Positions 6,401-60,678 of a DNA stretch of 64,000 nt are shown one piece after another; position 1 is the stretch's first letter; each line of letters opens with the position of its first letter. Under the pieces are notes generated by a model, which was given only the letters and a program-made list of their open reading frames with translations, had not been told where the DNA came from and did not search any database. This DNA is from Owenia fusiformis (lineage: Eukaryota > Annelida > Polychaeta > Sabellida > Oweniidae), in the NCBI GenBank assembly GCA_903813345.2, contig CAIIXF020000010.1, positions 23,036,740-23,100,739 on the forward strand, in the 5' to 3' direction. A program made the translations under genes and the position numbers.

Positions 6401-9400
6401 AAGCAAGAATATGAAAATTAACATCTATCCAGTATTAAAAATTAGTACCGTGGGTACTGGGCTCACATGGTGACAGAAAAAAAACGGATATAATTTTTTG
6501 CTGATTTTTTGTTACAAAATTATTTCAAGCCATCTGTCTCTCTGTCAATTAAAATGGCTGAAAAAAAAACGGATATAATTTTTTGCCAATAATTTGTAAC
6601 AAAATTATTTCATACAACTACTCTTTACAGTGACATGGCTTTTTGCAATGCAAGACACCTGAAATTATTTGTAAAGCTAGGAAATGGGCCAAAATTGAAT
6701 TTCGCGAGACAAAAATGGCGACCATTTTGAAATCAGGCAAGCTTTTGAACCAGGAGTCATAGGGGAGTTTTCTGTATTGATGTTGAACAAAAATAACTTG
6801 AAACTGGAATCCTATCGACAGAGCAGTTTTAAGCAAATGGTCCAAAAGAGGATTTCGCAAGACAGATGGACAAATCAATGTTAACTAAAATGGCTGAAAA
6901 TAAAAAAAACGGATATAATATTTTGCCGATTTTTTGTAACAAAATTATTTCATACAACTACCTTTTACAGTGACATGGCTCTTTACAATGCAGGACAGCT
7001 GAAATTATTTGTAAAGCTAGGAAATGGGCAAAAAGTGAATTTCGCAAAACAAGAATGGCAACCATTTTGAAAATAGGCGAGCTTTTGAACCAAGAGTCAT
7101 AGGAGAGTTTTTTGTATTGATGTTGAACAAAATTAACTTAAAATGGGAATCCTATCGACAGAGGGTTTAAGGTAAATGGTCCAAAAGTGGATTTTGCGAG
7201 ACAGATGGACAAATCAATGTTAACTAAAATGGCTGAAAATAAATAAATGGATATAATTTTTCATGGTTTTTCGTAACAAAATTTTTTCATACATCTACTC
7301 TTTACATTGACATGGATTTTTACAATGTAGGACACTTGAAATTATTTGTAAAGCTAGGAAATGGGTCAAAAGTGAATTTCGCGAGACAAAAATGGCGGCC
7401 ATTTTGAAAATAGGCGAGCTTTTGAACCAGGAGTCATATGGGAGTTTTCTGAATTGATGTTGAACAGAAATAACTTAAAACAGTAATCCTATCGACAGAG
7501 GTTTTTAAACGTGCCACAGAAAGTGGATTTCGCGAGTCAGATAGACAAATCAATGTTAACTAAAATGGCTGAAAATAAAAAAATGGATACAATTTTTCGA
7601 CAAAAGTGACGGCCATTTTGAAAATAGATGAGCTTTTGAACCAAGAGTCATAGGAGAGTTTTTTGTATTGACGTTGAACAAAAATAACTTAAAATGGGAA
7701 TCCTATCGACAGAGGGTTTAAGGTAAATGGTCCAAAAGTGAATTTTGCAAGACAGATGGACAAATCAATGTTAACTAAAATGGCTGAAAATAAATAAATG
7801 GATATAATTTTTCGCTGATTTTTCGTAACAAAATTATTTCATACATCTATTCTTTACTTTGAAATGGATTTCTACAATGTAGGACACTTGAAATTATTTG
7901 TAAAGCTAGGAAATGGGTCAAAAGTGAATTTAGCGAGACAAAAATGGCGGCCATTTTGAAAATAGGCGAGCTTTTGAACCAGGAGTCATAGGGGAGTTTT
8001 CTGAATTCATGTTGAACAGAAATAACTTAAAACAGGAATCCTATCGACAGAGGTTTTAAAACGTGCCACTGTTATTGACAGAAAGTGGATTTCGCGAGTC
8101 AGATAGACAAATCAATGTTAACTAAAATGGCTGAAAATAAAAAAATGGATACAATTTTTCGCTGATTTTTTGTAACAAAATTATTTCATATATCTAATCT
8201 TTACATTGACATGGATTTTTACGATGTAGGACACCTGAAATTATTTGTAAAGCTAGGAAATGGGCCAAAAGTGAATTTCGCGAGACAAAAGTGACAGCCA
8301 TTTTGAAAATAGGTGAGCTTTTGAACCAGGAGTCATAGGGGGGTTTTCTGTATTGATGTTGAACAGAAATAACTTAAAACAGGAATCCTATCGACAGAGG
8401 TTAGCTAGGAAATGGGCTAAAAGTGAATTTCGCGAGACAAAAGTGACGGCCATTTTGAAAATAGGCGAGCTTTTGAACCAGGAGTCATAGGGGGGTTTTC
8501 TGTATTGATGTTGAACAGAAATAACTTAAAACAGGAATCCTATCGACAGAGGTTTTAAAACGTGCCACTATTGTTGACGGACGGACGGACAGACGGACGG
8601 ACAGACGGACGGACAGACAGACAGACGGACAAGTGAGTGATTGCAAAAGCTCACCATGTGAGCTAATAATACAAAGGGTACACCAACCCAGTATTTGAAT
8701 TTGGATATTTAGAATATTTGGACCATTGATCTTAAGCTTGCATAAAATCATGGGCTTTCAATTAGAGTTGAAAGCCCATGATAAATTATACTTAATTGTT
8801 CAAAATAAATTTAGAGAAAGTCTTATATAGTACACATGGGTATAACTGACTAAATCAGAGTCAGAAATTACTATTTCCCACAATTCTTCTTAGACAGTTT
8901 AAACAAGAATTTGGGAAAATCAAACCAAAGTAATAAGACACACATATCATGTAATGTTTCCAAGTACACATTCTGGTTTCATAGGTCAAAGTCTTTTACT
9001 TGAAGTCTTAGAATACAGCTAAATTACTGCATTCGAAAGTGTAGTCATCAATTCAATCAAGTATTGCAAGCCTATGAAGTTTATAATTAGAACTTTCCCT
9101 TGTCATATATCTGTTAGTGAAATGCTTTATTGAGGATAATGAAAGACATGGACATATTTGCAGTGTCAGACACCCAAGCGAGTGAATCAACCATATAAAA
9201 TAGAAATTCTTTAGCCAATTTATAGATGCTCAATTTAATTCCTTTAGAACAAGCCACAAACACTTCCTGTCTCCCTTTTATGAGAAGCATGCTGATTGTA
9301 TTTTTTATTTCTTTGTATATGTTGTTTCATAGTAATACACATACAATGTTTATGTGTATTCAAATTGACAGACATGGTGCATTGACCTTGAACAGCATGA

Positions 9401-12003: not shown

Positions 12004-12939
12004 CTGATAATTACGGTTGGCCAAGACTATAAGGCCCACTAATTGAGGCCACCCACTGTTACGCAGTATATGGCATACATTAATGGTTGCACGGTATTTG
12101 TGATACGGGTGGATATGCCATACCATGGGCTTTCAACTAGAAGGGTAGGCAACTTCCCATATTTCATACATAAACATTGCCTTTGGGTTTTCAAAATTGG
12201 AGAATGTACACATTCCAAGAAAATCTTATTTTGTTCTTTTTATTGATGATTAAAAGAAATAACTCAAAAATAAAAACATGATCTTCTACATACATCTTGA
12301 TAATTTAATAAAAATTGGAATTCATCATAATTATGACACAGAAAGTGAACATTCTCCCACAAATTATGTTTTTATTGGAATGTGTTCTTGAATAATTACC
12401 CACAATGCAATACTCAAAGAGAACATCTTGATAAATCTTATTCTTATTGGTCTCTTTTGTTTACTTTTACATGATATTGAATATATTTTATGCTTAAATC
12501 ATATTAAAAATTGATTTTTATTCAAAATAATACTAAAACATATACATTTATCTAATACTTTTTGAAATATTGCCATAAAAGGGAAGCATGGCATTGTTCA
12601 TTTTGAAGGTCTCATGTTATTATATAGAGTTGCATACCCTTCTAGTTGAAAGCCCATGGCCATACTCACCTGCGGTATATGGCATATTCCGCAGGTGAGT
12701 ATGCGATATTCCGCAGTGAATATGCGATACATTGATTTCAGTGCCCGATACTCAGTACTCACCTCCGAAATATGTCATACTCACTTGCGGAATATGCCAT
12801 ATACCGCAAGTGAGTATGGCATATTCACCCGTATCACAAATACCGCGCAACCATGAATGTATGCCATATACCACGTAACAGCGGGTGGCCTCAATTAGTG
12901 GGCCTTTTTGTCATAGTCTTGGCCAACCGTAATTATCAG
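12004..12939. mobile_element. Long-TIR MITE carrying a nested insertion
   Basis: Outer inverted repeats run about 115 bp: left begins CTGATAATTACGGTTGGCCA, right ends with its complement at 12939, and both continue through GGCCCACTAATTGAGGCCACC. A second element (12124-12658) is inserted inside. Between 12659 and 12830 the remaining core has several alternating short palindromes built on GCGGAATATGCCATA and ACTCACCTGCGG. The duplication at the outer ends is unclear, so the superfamily is not assigned. Non-coding. Confidence 0.7.
12124..12658. mobile_element. 535-bp element with 7-bp target duplication
   Basis: Ends CATGGGCTTTCAACTAGAAG and its complement, flanked on both sides by GCCATAC (12117-12123 and 12659-12665). 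Internally homologous, in opposite orientation, to the element at 35743-36308 (shared TTCATTTTGAAG, GGAAGCATGGCA and ATTCTCCCACAA-type stretches). It is inserted into the long-TIR MITE. No open frame for a transposase. Confidence 0.8.
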
Positions 12940-13159: not shown

Positions 13160-13691
13160 CACTGGTGATCCACTCGATTACGCTGGTTACCAAAACGGTT
13201 CGTTTTGGTAACAAAATGTCGGAACGTCGAAGGTACTATTTTTCTTTTTTCCTTATTTCACGCGTTGTAGGCAGAATCCCCACGACGTTTTTTCTCACAA
13301 ACGTATATCAGTATCATATGTTTTAGAAAATGTTCATGTTTGCGAAAAAATAGCTCAGAAGACGAATCGTCAATTTAATTCCTCACTTTAGTTACATAAA
13401 CGGTTTTGGTTAAAAGTACAGATCTTAACTGTTTTTCGAAAAACCGTTTATGTAACTTAAGTGAAGAATTAAATCGACGATTCTGTTGTGTTCTGAACTA
13501 TTTGTTCGCACATATGTACATTTTCTTAAACATATGATACTGATACACGTTTGTGTTAAAAAATGTCGTTGGAATTCTGCATACAACGTGTGAAATAAGG
13601 AAAAGAGAAAAATCGTACCTTCGAAGTTCCGACATTTTGTTACCAAAACGAACCGTTTTGGTAACCAGCGTAATCGAGTGGATCACCAGTG
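13160..13691. mobile_element. Foldback MITE, Transib-like ends, copy 1
   Basis: Nearly the whole 532-bp element is one inverted repeat: arms begin CACTGGTGATCCACTCGATT and pair over more than 200 bp around a short centre near 13420-13440. Flanked by TTTGG on both sides (13155-13159 and 13692-13696). A 5-bp duplication and a CAC terminus are features of Transib elements, relatives of RAG recombinase substrates; the assignment is inference. Short open frames here are palindrome by-products. Confidence 0.7.
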
Positions 13692-15704: not shown

Positions 15705-36965
<21,261 letters not shown>

Positions 36966-41423: not shown

Positions 41424-41945
41424 CACTGGTGATCCACTCGATTACGCTGGTTACCGAAACGGTTCGTTTTGGTAACAAAATGTCGGAACATCGAAGGTAC
41501 GATTTTTCTTTTTTCCTTATTTCACACGTTGTAGGCAGAATTCTCACGACATTTTTAACACAAACGTGTATTAGTATCATATGTTTAGGAAAATGTACAT
41601 ATTTGCGAACAAATAGTTCAGAAGACGACAGAATCGTCGATTTAATTCCTCACTTAAGTTACATAAACGGTTTTCGAAAAACAGTTAAGATCTGCACTTT
41701 TAACCCAAACCGTTTATGTTACTTAAGTGAGAAATTAAATCGACGATTCTGCTATTTTTTCGCAAACATGTACATTTTCTAAAGCATATGATACTGATAT
41801 ACGTTTGTGAGAAAAAACGTCGTGTGGATTCTGCCTACAACGCGTGAAATAAGGAAAAAAGAAAAATCGTACCTTCGACGGTCCGACATTTTGTTACCAA
41901 AACGAACCGTTTCGGTAACCAGCGTAATCGAGCGGATCACCAGTG
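41424..41945. mobile_element. Foldback MITE, Transib-like ends, copy 2
   Basis: 522-bp near-complete palindrome homologous to 13160-13691, same CACTGGTGATCC ends, flanked by ATACA on both sides (41419-41423 and 41946-41950). Its central loop is in the opposite orientation to that of copy 1. The 5-bp duplication is perfect. Confidence 0.75.
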
Positions 41946-49680: not shown

Positions 49681-50962
49681 TGTAACATTTAACGGGAATT
49701 AAACGTTAATAAAATAATGTTCACCGCTTCAGTCCATAATAGCAAACATAAAATATGTGTAGATGACACAACTTCTAAGTTTATTCCATCTTCCTAGCTA
49801 CATTTTGCATAATCTTTATTTCATCTCAAGCACTGTTATATGATAATAACATTTTCCTTCATGATTATAACGTTGTCCTAAGAAGCTTGTGTGATATTTT
49901 TAAAGCTAAAAGTTATCCTATTCAAAATCACATCTTCATGATGATTATATTGTCCTGAGAAGTTTGTATGATTTTCTTTTAAGCTAAAAGCTATTCTCTC
50001 AAAATCACATCTTTCTGATTATAACATTGTCTTAAGAGCTTGTGTGATATTCTTAAAAGCTAATAGCTATCCTGTTATTTAAAAGTCATACATCAGTATA
50101 TATACAGTTCTTGGAGTTCTTGGAATAAGGGCGGATCTCAATTTAAATAGGTTGATCTGATTGGATAGAGATTTTTGGGGACAGTTTAATTTATGGGGCA
50201 CTACCCTTGCCTCTCCTGTAAACACGTGTCTGCATTGGCAAACAAAGGAATGTGTACAGTGATCACTTTAATTGCTGCAGTGAGGGGGGGGGTGAATATA
50301 ATCTATTCCTGTGGTCAGAAATAAATGTTTCTCCAGGAACTGTCGATACACATCAGATCAAAGTTAGTTACAACATCTAATTACATTCACATGGTTAATA
50401 AACAATGCATATTCAAGCATTTAAAAATACATATTTAATTGCACTAAACTACATCCATCATAAAATATTCTTTGTCTGTGGGTGGGATGATTTCACCAAG
50501 GAGAGAATTCTCACAGATGTACATGTGCACCTTGGGACAATAGCAGTATAATTGTCATCCAATAAACAAAGGCTTTATAATTAAATATTTCGGAGTGGCA
50601 TCCGAACCGATAAAATTGATAGTGAACAAAATATGAAATGTCAGCCTCGTTTGATTTGTGGCAATTAATAAATTCGAGTGAAAGAGTAAATCTGAACAAC
50701 ATGCTACTGAGCGTGTGAATTTGATATTCAGCTCTGTTTTACAAACATTAGAATCTTTATGACAAAGGGCTATAATGGTCAGAGCATTGAATTCAGATCT
50801 GCATGCAATGATTTATGAACTGGGAATTTCAAAGAATTTTATGAAACCAACACTTGTATTTGACTTCACTAAAATAGTGAAGATTTAATTATGACCAAGT
50901 CCAAATATTTTTGATTTCCCTAAAATATGAATATAAAACAGAAATAGTGCATTTCTGTTACA
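49681..50962 (-). repeat. LTR (downstream in element sense), 1282 bp
   Basis: Long terminal repeat matching 53730-55014 essentially throughout; the visible length difference is in a G-run near 50285. Its ends are the TGT…ACA pair. Confidence 0.92.
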
Positions 50963-53729: not shown

Positions 53730-55014
53730 TGTAACATTTAACGGGAATTAAACGTTAATAAAATAATGTTCACCGCTTCAGTCCATAATAGCAAACATAA
53801 AATATGTGTAGATGACACAACTTCTAAGTTTATTCCATCTTCCTAGCTACATTTTGCATAATCTTTATTTCATCTCAAGCACTGTTATATGATAATAACA
53901 TTTTCCTTCATGATTATAACGTTGTCCTAAGAAGCTTGTGTGATATTTTTAAAGCTAAAAGTTATCCTATTCAAAATCACATCTTCATGATGATTATATT
54001 GTCCTGAGAAGTTTGTATGATTTTCTTTTAAGCTAAAAGCTATTCTCTCAAAATCACATCTTTCTGATTATAACATTGTCTTAAGAGCTTGTGTGATATT
54101 CTTAAAAGCTAATAGCTATCCTGTTATTTAAAAGTCATACATCAGTATATATACAGTTCTTGGAGTTCTTGGAATAAGGGCGGATCTCAATTTAAATAGG
54201 TTGATCTGATTGGATAGAGATTTTTGGGGACAGTTTAATTTATGGGGCACTACCCTTGCCTCTCCTGTAAACACGTGTCTGCATTGGCAAACAAAGGAAT
54301 GTGTACAGTGATCACTTTAATTGCTGCAGTGAGGGGGGGGGGGGTGAATATAATCTATTCCTGTGGTCAGAAATAAATGTTTCTCCAGGAACTGTCGATA
54401 CACATCAGATCAAAGTTAGTTACAACATCTAATTACATTCACATGGTTAATAAACAATGCATATTCAAGCATTTAAAAATACATATTTAATTGCACTAAA
54501 CTACATCCATCATAAAATATTCTTTGTCTGTGGGTGGGATGATTTCACCAAGGAGAGAATTCTCACAGATGTACATGTGCACCTTGGGACAATAGCAGTA
54601 TAATTGTCATCCAATAAACAAAGGCTTTATAATTAAATATTTCGGAGTGGCATCCGAACCGATAAAATTGATAGTGAACAAAATATGAAATGTCAGCCTC
54701 GTTTGATTTGTGGCAATTAATAAATTCGAGTGAAAGAGTAAATCTGAACAACATGCTACTGAGCGTGTGAATTTGATATTCAGCTCTGTTTTACAAACAT
54801 TAGAATCTTTATGACAAAGGGCTATAATGGTCAGAGCATTGAATTCAGATCTGCATGCAATGATTTATGAACTGGGAATTTCAAAGAATTTTATGAAACC
54901 AACACTTGTATTTGACTTCACTAAAATAGTGAAGATTTAATTATGACCAAGTCCAAATATTTTTGATTTCCCTAAAATATGAATATAAAACAGAAATAGT
55001 GCATTTCTGTTACA
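53730..55014 (-). repeat. LTR (upstream in element sense), 1285 bp
   Basis: Partner of the LTR at 49681-50962; the two read alike at every stretch I compared apart from the G-run. It would carry the element's promoter. Confidence 0.92.
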
Positions 55015-57239: not shown

Positions 57240-57600
57240 TCTCAGTGTTGAATCAAGGTTGATGGCAAATCAGGGTTAATTCAAGCCTAATATCATGTAT
57301 CCTAAATCAACCTTAAATCATGGGCTCTAGTTGAAAGCCCATGCTTAAATCAAGCTTGATTCAACATTGATATCCTCAACCTTAAATCAAGCCTGAAAAA
57401 TCAACACTGAATCAAGCTTGATATCAAGCTTAAATTGACCATGGACATCGTTAACGCTGATTTAACATTGATTCAACCTTGAATCAAATCGCTTGATTTA
57501 ACACTGCATTAACCCATTGGACAATTATGGCTTTTCAATGGTTGAGGAATCAATGCTGAATCAATATTGACTTTTTGTTGAATCAAAGAAATTTATCATG
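57240..57600. repeat. Imperfect TTGAATCAAGCTTGA-type short repeats
   Basis: About 350 bp built from many diverged copies of a 12-16-base phrase on TTGAATCAA and CTTGATT, in both orientations. A mini-palindrome (57319-57343) has inserted in it. No coding content. Confidence 0.6.
57319..57343. mobile_element. 25-bp mini-palindrome of the 7-bp TSD family
   Basis: Starts CATGGGCT and ends AGCCCATG with CTAGTTGAA between; flanked by perfect 7-bp duplication CTTAAAT (57312-57318 and 57344-57350). The smallest of the mini copies and still bounded like a transposon insertion. Confidence 0.75.
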
Positions 57601-60169: not shown

Positions 60170-60678
60170 AAAAACTTTACTTTCTGGATGGTGCAAAATT
60201 CTGAAAATTAAAATCATTATTAAATTGTATTTTAAAGTTTAGATTTAATTGAATGAATTGTTATATCTTATCATGGGCTCTGATAGATCTTATAAAAAAG
60301 ATGGGGATCAAACAGGATGAAACCTTCGTCACCTAGGACAGATGTAAGATGTACGATTTTATCATATGCCATCAAACCGCTTGAACTTTACGATTGATTA
60401 CATCATATTTACTACTACTCAATAAGTTTGTGAATATGTTGTCGTTTATTGACAAATGTTGTTGTAAATAAATATTAGAATTAAGAAAAGAAATTGTGGA
60501 AAATACCATACAAACGATTTGAAGCATCTTATTAAAAACAGCATACACGTATCCTTACATGTGTCTAGTTAGATTAGCTTATTCCATTATATCCATTTCT
60601 CATTATATGAACTATTATTACCGAAGCAAAATATTACTGATCAAAATAAAGAAATCTAAACACATTACTTAGTACATT

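Follow-up and report, generated by a model that had tools for sequence, protein, structure and literature searches.

A probable excision scar of a P-element-like transposon in Owenia fusiformis and the genome-wide class to which it belongs

A 25-bp insert at position 57319 of a 64-kb stretch of Owenia fusiformis DNA (the window) is most likely the scar of an excised transposon that resembled the fruit-fly P element and whose broken ends were rejoined by the cell. We are strongly confident that the insert is an excision scar, whatever enzyme produced it, and we consider it highly probable, if slightly less so, that it is the footprint of a MITE mobilised in trans by a transposase of the P-superfamily type. 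According to the mechanism that we propose, a transposase supplied in trans would cut one strand at the border of the element and, at each end, the other strand some 17-18 nt further in. Once the element had left, tails with its terminal 17-18 nt would remain beside the 7-bp target duplication (TSD) on each side; by analogy with Drosophila, these tails are presumably 3' overhangs. End joining would trim, overlap and sometimes fill both tails, to finally yield a product made of TSD, at most 18 nt of one end, at most 18 nt of the other end, and TSD. At 57319, 8 nt would be left from one end and 17-18 nt from the other.

The insert and related features in the window

The insert reads CATGGGCT...AGCCCATG (full sequence CATGGGCTCTAGTTGAAAGCCCATG), and CTTAAAT directly adjoins it on both sides (Table 1). 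The sequence-only reading had described a 25-bp insert bounded by a perfect CTTAAAT duplication, and both its coordinates and its letters were confirmed. It had also traced the ends of the insert to the 535-bp and 566-bp elements at 12124 and 35743, and we found the same ends there. The 8-mer CATGGGCT occurs eight times in the window, compared with a mean of 1.11 in 100 shuffles. The insert is embedded in an array of repeats that are short and degenerate, and CTTAAAT begins there at 57312, 57344, 57381 and 57429. Because the 7-mer recurs in this array, the TSD of this locus, taken by itself, counts for less than it first appears to. The array also contains a natural empty site: the joined flanks of the insert match a neighbouring repeat copy at 20 of 21 bases without gaps.

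Insert-free paralogs were found for two further scars. The 30-bp scar L055 sits in a dispersed repeat, and four places in the window match its joined flanks (a single TSD copy retained) at 90.6-93.4%, again gapless. The joined flanks of L059 match L015 at 87.7%, also without gaps. At L055, L059 and 57319 the scar therefore amounts to the target, a duplication of 7 bp of it, and the joined ends. The paralogs of L055 fall in window positions 13201-13644 and 41465-41898, which are two copies of an element of about 440 bp with inverted repeated arms. As an empty site of the 12124 element, 12939-12671 was rejected as too gapped, with a match of 83.6% but 9 gap openings.

The window (34% G+C, in an assembly of 498,259,871 bases) contains two other tiny palindromes with two ends, the scars at 8749 and 29666. 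The site at 60272-60286 is probably a one-sided scar whose second end was wholly lost, and its assignment is provisional; its end type was not seen in any intact element. It is the CATGGGCT start that marks it as a scar: in the 7-bp duplication scan, the offset control gave 7 duplications at 296 CATG sites, so such a duplication next to CATG alone carries no significance. The MITEs seen with these ends are non-coding. The 535-bp MITE has at least 40 copies at 96-100% identity, the 12124 copy included; since these 40 were the ones scored among 679 first-look candidates, we do not claim that scars are more numerous than surviving elements. Elsewhere in the window, 50233-50550 and 54282-54600, which lie about 4 kb from each other, appear to be directly duplicated (shared words at 50233/54282 and 50522/54574). 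A frame at 19498-21732 runs without interruption for 744 aa and has LRR and TIR domains, as in the Toll-like receptor type; the matches to an LRR-TIR protein and to FUT8 suggest animal DNA.

Table 1. Scars (as interpreted here), MITEs and insert-free sites in the window
Feature	Position	Strand	Details
Left 7-bp target duplication	57312..57318	.	CTTAAAT, sequence read
25-bp excision footprint (most likely)	57319..57343	+	8 nt of one end + 17-18 nt of the other
Right 7-bp target duplication	57344..57350	.	CTTAAAT, sequence read
Neighbouring repeat copy	57376..57396	+	Matches insert-free site, 20/21 bases
38-bp excision footprint	29666..29703	+	TSD GTTTATT, perfect (29659-29665 / 29704-29710)
32-bp excision footprint	8749..8780	+	TSD ATAAAAT/ATAAATT, 6/7
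One-sided footprint (probable)	60272..60286	+	CATGGGCTCTGATAG, 15 nt of one end; ATCTTAT on both sides
535-bp non-coding MITE	12124..12658	+	31-bp TIRs 97% alike; TSD GCCATAC, perfect
566-bp related MITE	35743..36308	+	Left end CATGGGCATTCAATAGA, right end CATGGGCTTTCAATAGA; TSD ATCAAAT, perfect
Insert-free paralog of L055	41465-41531
Insert-free paralog of L055	13584-13644
Insert-free paralog of L055	13201-13261
Insert-free paralog of L055	41835-41898

Abundance of such sites in the genome

In the sequence-only reading, a genome search for CATGGGC...GCCCATG with matching 7-bp flanks was suggested as the check, and flanking 7-mers at chance level were to count against the insertion. We searched the 498-Mb genome with CATGGGC-N(0-30)-GCCCATG and obtained 2315 matches per strand, which are 2315 palindromic places. 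The same loose pattern written backwards gave 725, so part of the 2315 places must be other repeats. As a sample we took the first 50 consecutive, unselected places, all within the first 9.1 Mb of contig C1. The 7-bp flank was duplicated exactly at 38/50 places, and with at most one mismatch at 43/50. In contrast, mispaired left and right flanks gave 3 exact and 24 one-mismatch agreements among 2450 pairings, and the flanks thus agree well above chance level. Duplications of 8 to 11 bp were found at 0/50 sampled places. At 7 of the 50 the TSDs had two or more mismatches, and the figure of 2315 thus includes non-members; L006 and L017, both among these seven, resemble other repeats as judged by eye. 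The scars keep both TSDs, with variable end remnants between them, as is characteristic of excision footprints.

We further anchored the search with two TSD letters (AC...AC). With 7-bp spacing and elements of 16-44 bp, this gave 477 forward and 477 reverse hits, 954 altogether, where one element can count on both strands (7/93 among the AC-anchored matches listed). When the spacing was shifted to 8 bp, 9 + 11 = 20 hits remained, and elements of 45-74 bp at 7-bp spacing gave 12 + 4 = 16. The backwards-pattern controls were 0 for all three counts. Elsewhere they were 0 for the 25-bp pattern and for a pattern with at least 20 nt of the ACTAG-type end, and 0 and 1 in another end-pattern search. 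By these genome-wide tests, the scar class lies far beyond chance. Scaled from 43/50 to the 2315 places, the number of scars whose TSD can be recognised appears to be about 2000, provided that C1 is representative. Excisions are undercounted by the two-ended pattern, because scars that lack even one of the seven terminal bases on either side escape it; the one-sided scar at 60272-60286 points the same way.

Likeness to P elements and the candidate enzyme

Drosophila P transposase makes a 17-nt stagger, 8-bp TSDs and 17-nt 3' overhangs at the donor (PMC7776569, PMC10983969, PMC2895639). Products of P{wa} excision consist of TSD, a partial 17-nt tail, microhomology or an insert, the other partial tail, and TSD (PMC2895639, Table 1). 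The Owenia scars share with these D. melanogaster junctions the order TSD, tail remnant, tail remnant, TSD, with blunt, microhomology and inserted joins (PMC2895639). Their ends begin with CATG, as do those of the P element (PMC2895639), and the 31-bp TIRs of the latter (PMC7776569) have a counterpart here in 31 bp at 97%. Drosophila P differs in its 8-bp TSD and 17-nt tails, compared with 7 bp and 17-18 nt in Owenia, and its junctions came from laboratory flies, whereas roughly two thousand scars stand in one assembly here.

A parallel for the target is Galileo, a P-superfamily element of Drosophila with 7-bp TSDs of consensus GTATTAC (PMC4168063). Over 54 of our sites the target motif is TnnGTnnnACnnA, with T at 80%, T at 78%, A at 87%, A at 74%, and G and C at 44% each. 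Common to both are the 7-bp TSD, the palindromic GT...AC target and the many non-autonomous copies; however, Galileo TIRs are long, and its target flank is AANGT rather than the TnnGT found here (PMC4168063). In the main text of the Galileo paper the word "footprint" is absent (PMC4168063). Two traits of the P superfamily are present in Owenia: a TSD of 7-8 bp with a palindromic GT...AC target, and a long stagger that places a cut about 17 nt within the element, the latter read from scars rather than from biochemistry. P-type elements also occur outside insects, as in zebrafish Pdre2/THAP9, whose 13-bp TIR CATACCTGTCAAC has CAT...TCAAC as in CATGGGCTTTCAAC (PMC10983969). Pdre2 differs in its 8-bp TSD and distant subterminal repeats, and no scar family is described in the parts of that paper drawn on here (PMC10983969).

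The genome contains P-type Pfam matches (PF21787, 13; PF21788, 11; PF21789, 4). The open frame of L031 contains each of these three domains, and it matches 6p5a, a solved P transposase, with E 2.3e-15; a scan of two L031 frames revealed no THAP domain. PF12017 (Tnp_P_element) had no match in the genome or in 14 control genomes; because the controls were blank too, this says nothing about absence. Around each of the 13 transposase (PF21787) loci we read 10 kb, and a CATGGGC-type TIR pair with a TSD was present at 0/13. The bare CATGGGC 7-mer is present in L038, L039 and L040, where 31-bp TIR matches reach scores of 18-20 at best, no more than 2 away from the single shuffle made for each. Since none of the 13 loci has a TIR of this family with a TSD, we infer the mobilising enzyme from the Drosophila-like scar layout, the Galileo-like TSD and target, and the P-type transposases in the genome, which together suggest a P-type enzyme acting in trans. 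Four P-type transposase loci (L032, L033, L034 and L035) are about 99% alike inside a larger shared sequence, pointing to recent duplication or mobility. L040:3420-9123 may be a P-type element of its own, 5.7 kb long, in which a transposase fragment is enclosed by CACTTACCT ends and an 8-bp TSD, CTATTCAT.

The same footprints could have been left by a transposase of another superfamily that combines a long staggered cut with 7-bp TSDs, and such an enzyme would fit with the lack of an autonomous partner at the 13 transposase loci and of THAP in the L031 frames scanned. We hold the P-type reading slightly less firmly than the scar reading, because no THAP was seen and this other enzyme would share the remaining evidence. 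However, a 17-nt stagger sets P apart from other characterised cut-and-paste elements (PMC7776569), and a 7-bp TSD with a GT...AC target is what Galileo shows (PMC4168063), so we regard an enzyme from another superfamily as improbable.

Anatomy of the joins and what they may record

In order to parse the joins, we used 50 scars, namely 47 of the 50 sampled places (those with at most two TSD mismatches; L006, L014 and L017 were left out) and the three window scars. L003 and L004, with 2 and 0 TSD mismatches respectively, stand outside every count of 50. The reference ends were four window ends, five fetched copies (L079-L083) and two ends from another pattern listing. Each scar consists of two element ends of at most 17-19 nt each, joined with varied trimming, overlap or filler. 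The end types are ACTAG (that of the 535-bp element), ATTAG (known from scars only), ATAGA, GAGA, ACAGA and CTCTACC/CTCTATC, and several related MITE families therefore seem to have been excised.

The joins are diverse. Among the 43 sampled scars with at most one TSD mismatch, 41 sequences and 42 TSDs are distinct. This bears on the two options raised in the sequence-only reading, that the insert is the footprint of an excised larger copy, or that inserts this small can move on their own, a pair of bare termini being sufficient for recognition and insertion. Most tiny elements do have proper 7-bp TSDs, and some 25-bp sequences do recur at unrelated sites: CATGGGCTCTAGTTGAAAGCCCATG, on either strand, was counted by eye at no fewer than seven of the 50 places listed among the 78 of the 25-bp class. 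A mobile micro-family, however, would consist of many copies with few sequences, and the 41 distinct scars leave no dominant clone. A join can recur among Drosophila excision junctions too, where 14 isolates share one join (PMC2895639), and the probable one-sided scar at 60272-60286 has a single end. We give mobility of bare termini very little credence, and the footprint option is the one favoured by exact TSDs, diverse joins, a length ceiling and insert-free paralogs at three sites.

The AC-anchored matches listed (100 in number) comprise 93 distinct elements of 20-41 bp with a mode of 30, and 84 of these 93 are 36 bp or shorter. The upper bound on length is thus about 2 x 18 nt, to which some filler is occasionally added. 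Among the 100 sides of the parsed joins, the match to an intact end was 17 nt long in 11, 18 in 7 and 19 in 4 (22 in total), and 0/100 matched 20 nt or more. Five short elements in the whole genome keep at least 20 nt of the ACTAG-type end. These do not contradict the limit, because a simulation with a true 18-nt limit and the same end mix yields apparent matches of at least 20 nt in 2.6% of joins by coincidence. It is hardly credible that the scars are instead internal-deletion derivatives of interrupted gap repair (copying from the sister, then end joining), since, although interrupted synthesis after P excision is described (PMC2895639, PMC4168063), copying would extend the remnants beyond nt 18 and produce a continuous range of lengths, and we found 16 hits at 45-74 bp against 954 and five elements that keep at least 20 nt of the ACTAG-type end.

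Within the footprint reading, the joins also bear on the position of the cut. At the ACTAG-type end, 11/15 sides (palindromic L048 counted once) continue past nt 17 with the A that the element itself has there, which gives a binomial P of 1e-4 against 25%; the true P is weaker, because the genome is A+T-rich and the A may come from the other end in several joins. A cut at 18 nt rather than 17 nt is the likelier for this end. Two ATAGA-type sides stop at 17 nt. Four GAGA-type sides read 17 nt, and in 3/4 of them an A then follows where both reference ends have G, so the donor end may differ and the 17-nt reading is uncertain. As for repair, the overlap at 20 filler-free joins was not above simulation (mean 1.25 vs 0.99, P = 0.16), and it was by eye alone that fillers in L012, L064 and L072 were judged to look templated; polymerase-theta end joining is therefore put forward as no more than a plausible route.

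In summary, it is rather probable that Owenia holds a natural library of about 2000 P-type excision scars, which resolves to the single base a cut at 17-18 nt and 7-bp spacing (17 and 8 in Drosophila P). Such footprints were already known from P excisions in laboratory flies; here they abound in a genome assembly, and the cut position can be read from scars alone. Our literature search found experimental P footprints and no genome-wide P-type footprint set in another animal, which does not prove that none has been published. The scars offer a sequence-only route to the stagger of an uncharacterised transposase, as well as a large natural collection of end-joining products, and they caution annotators that a tiny palindrome flanked by TSDs is not necessarily a mobile element. 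If this reading is true, the range of trimmed, overlapping and filled joins would preserve a lasting record of germline double-strand-break repair in this organism.
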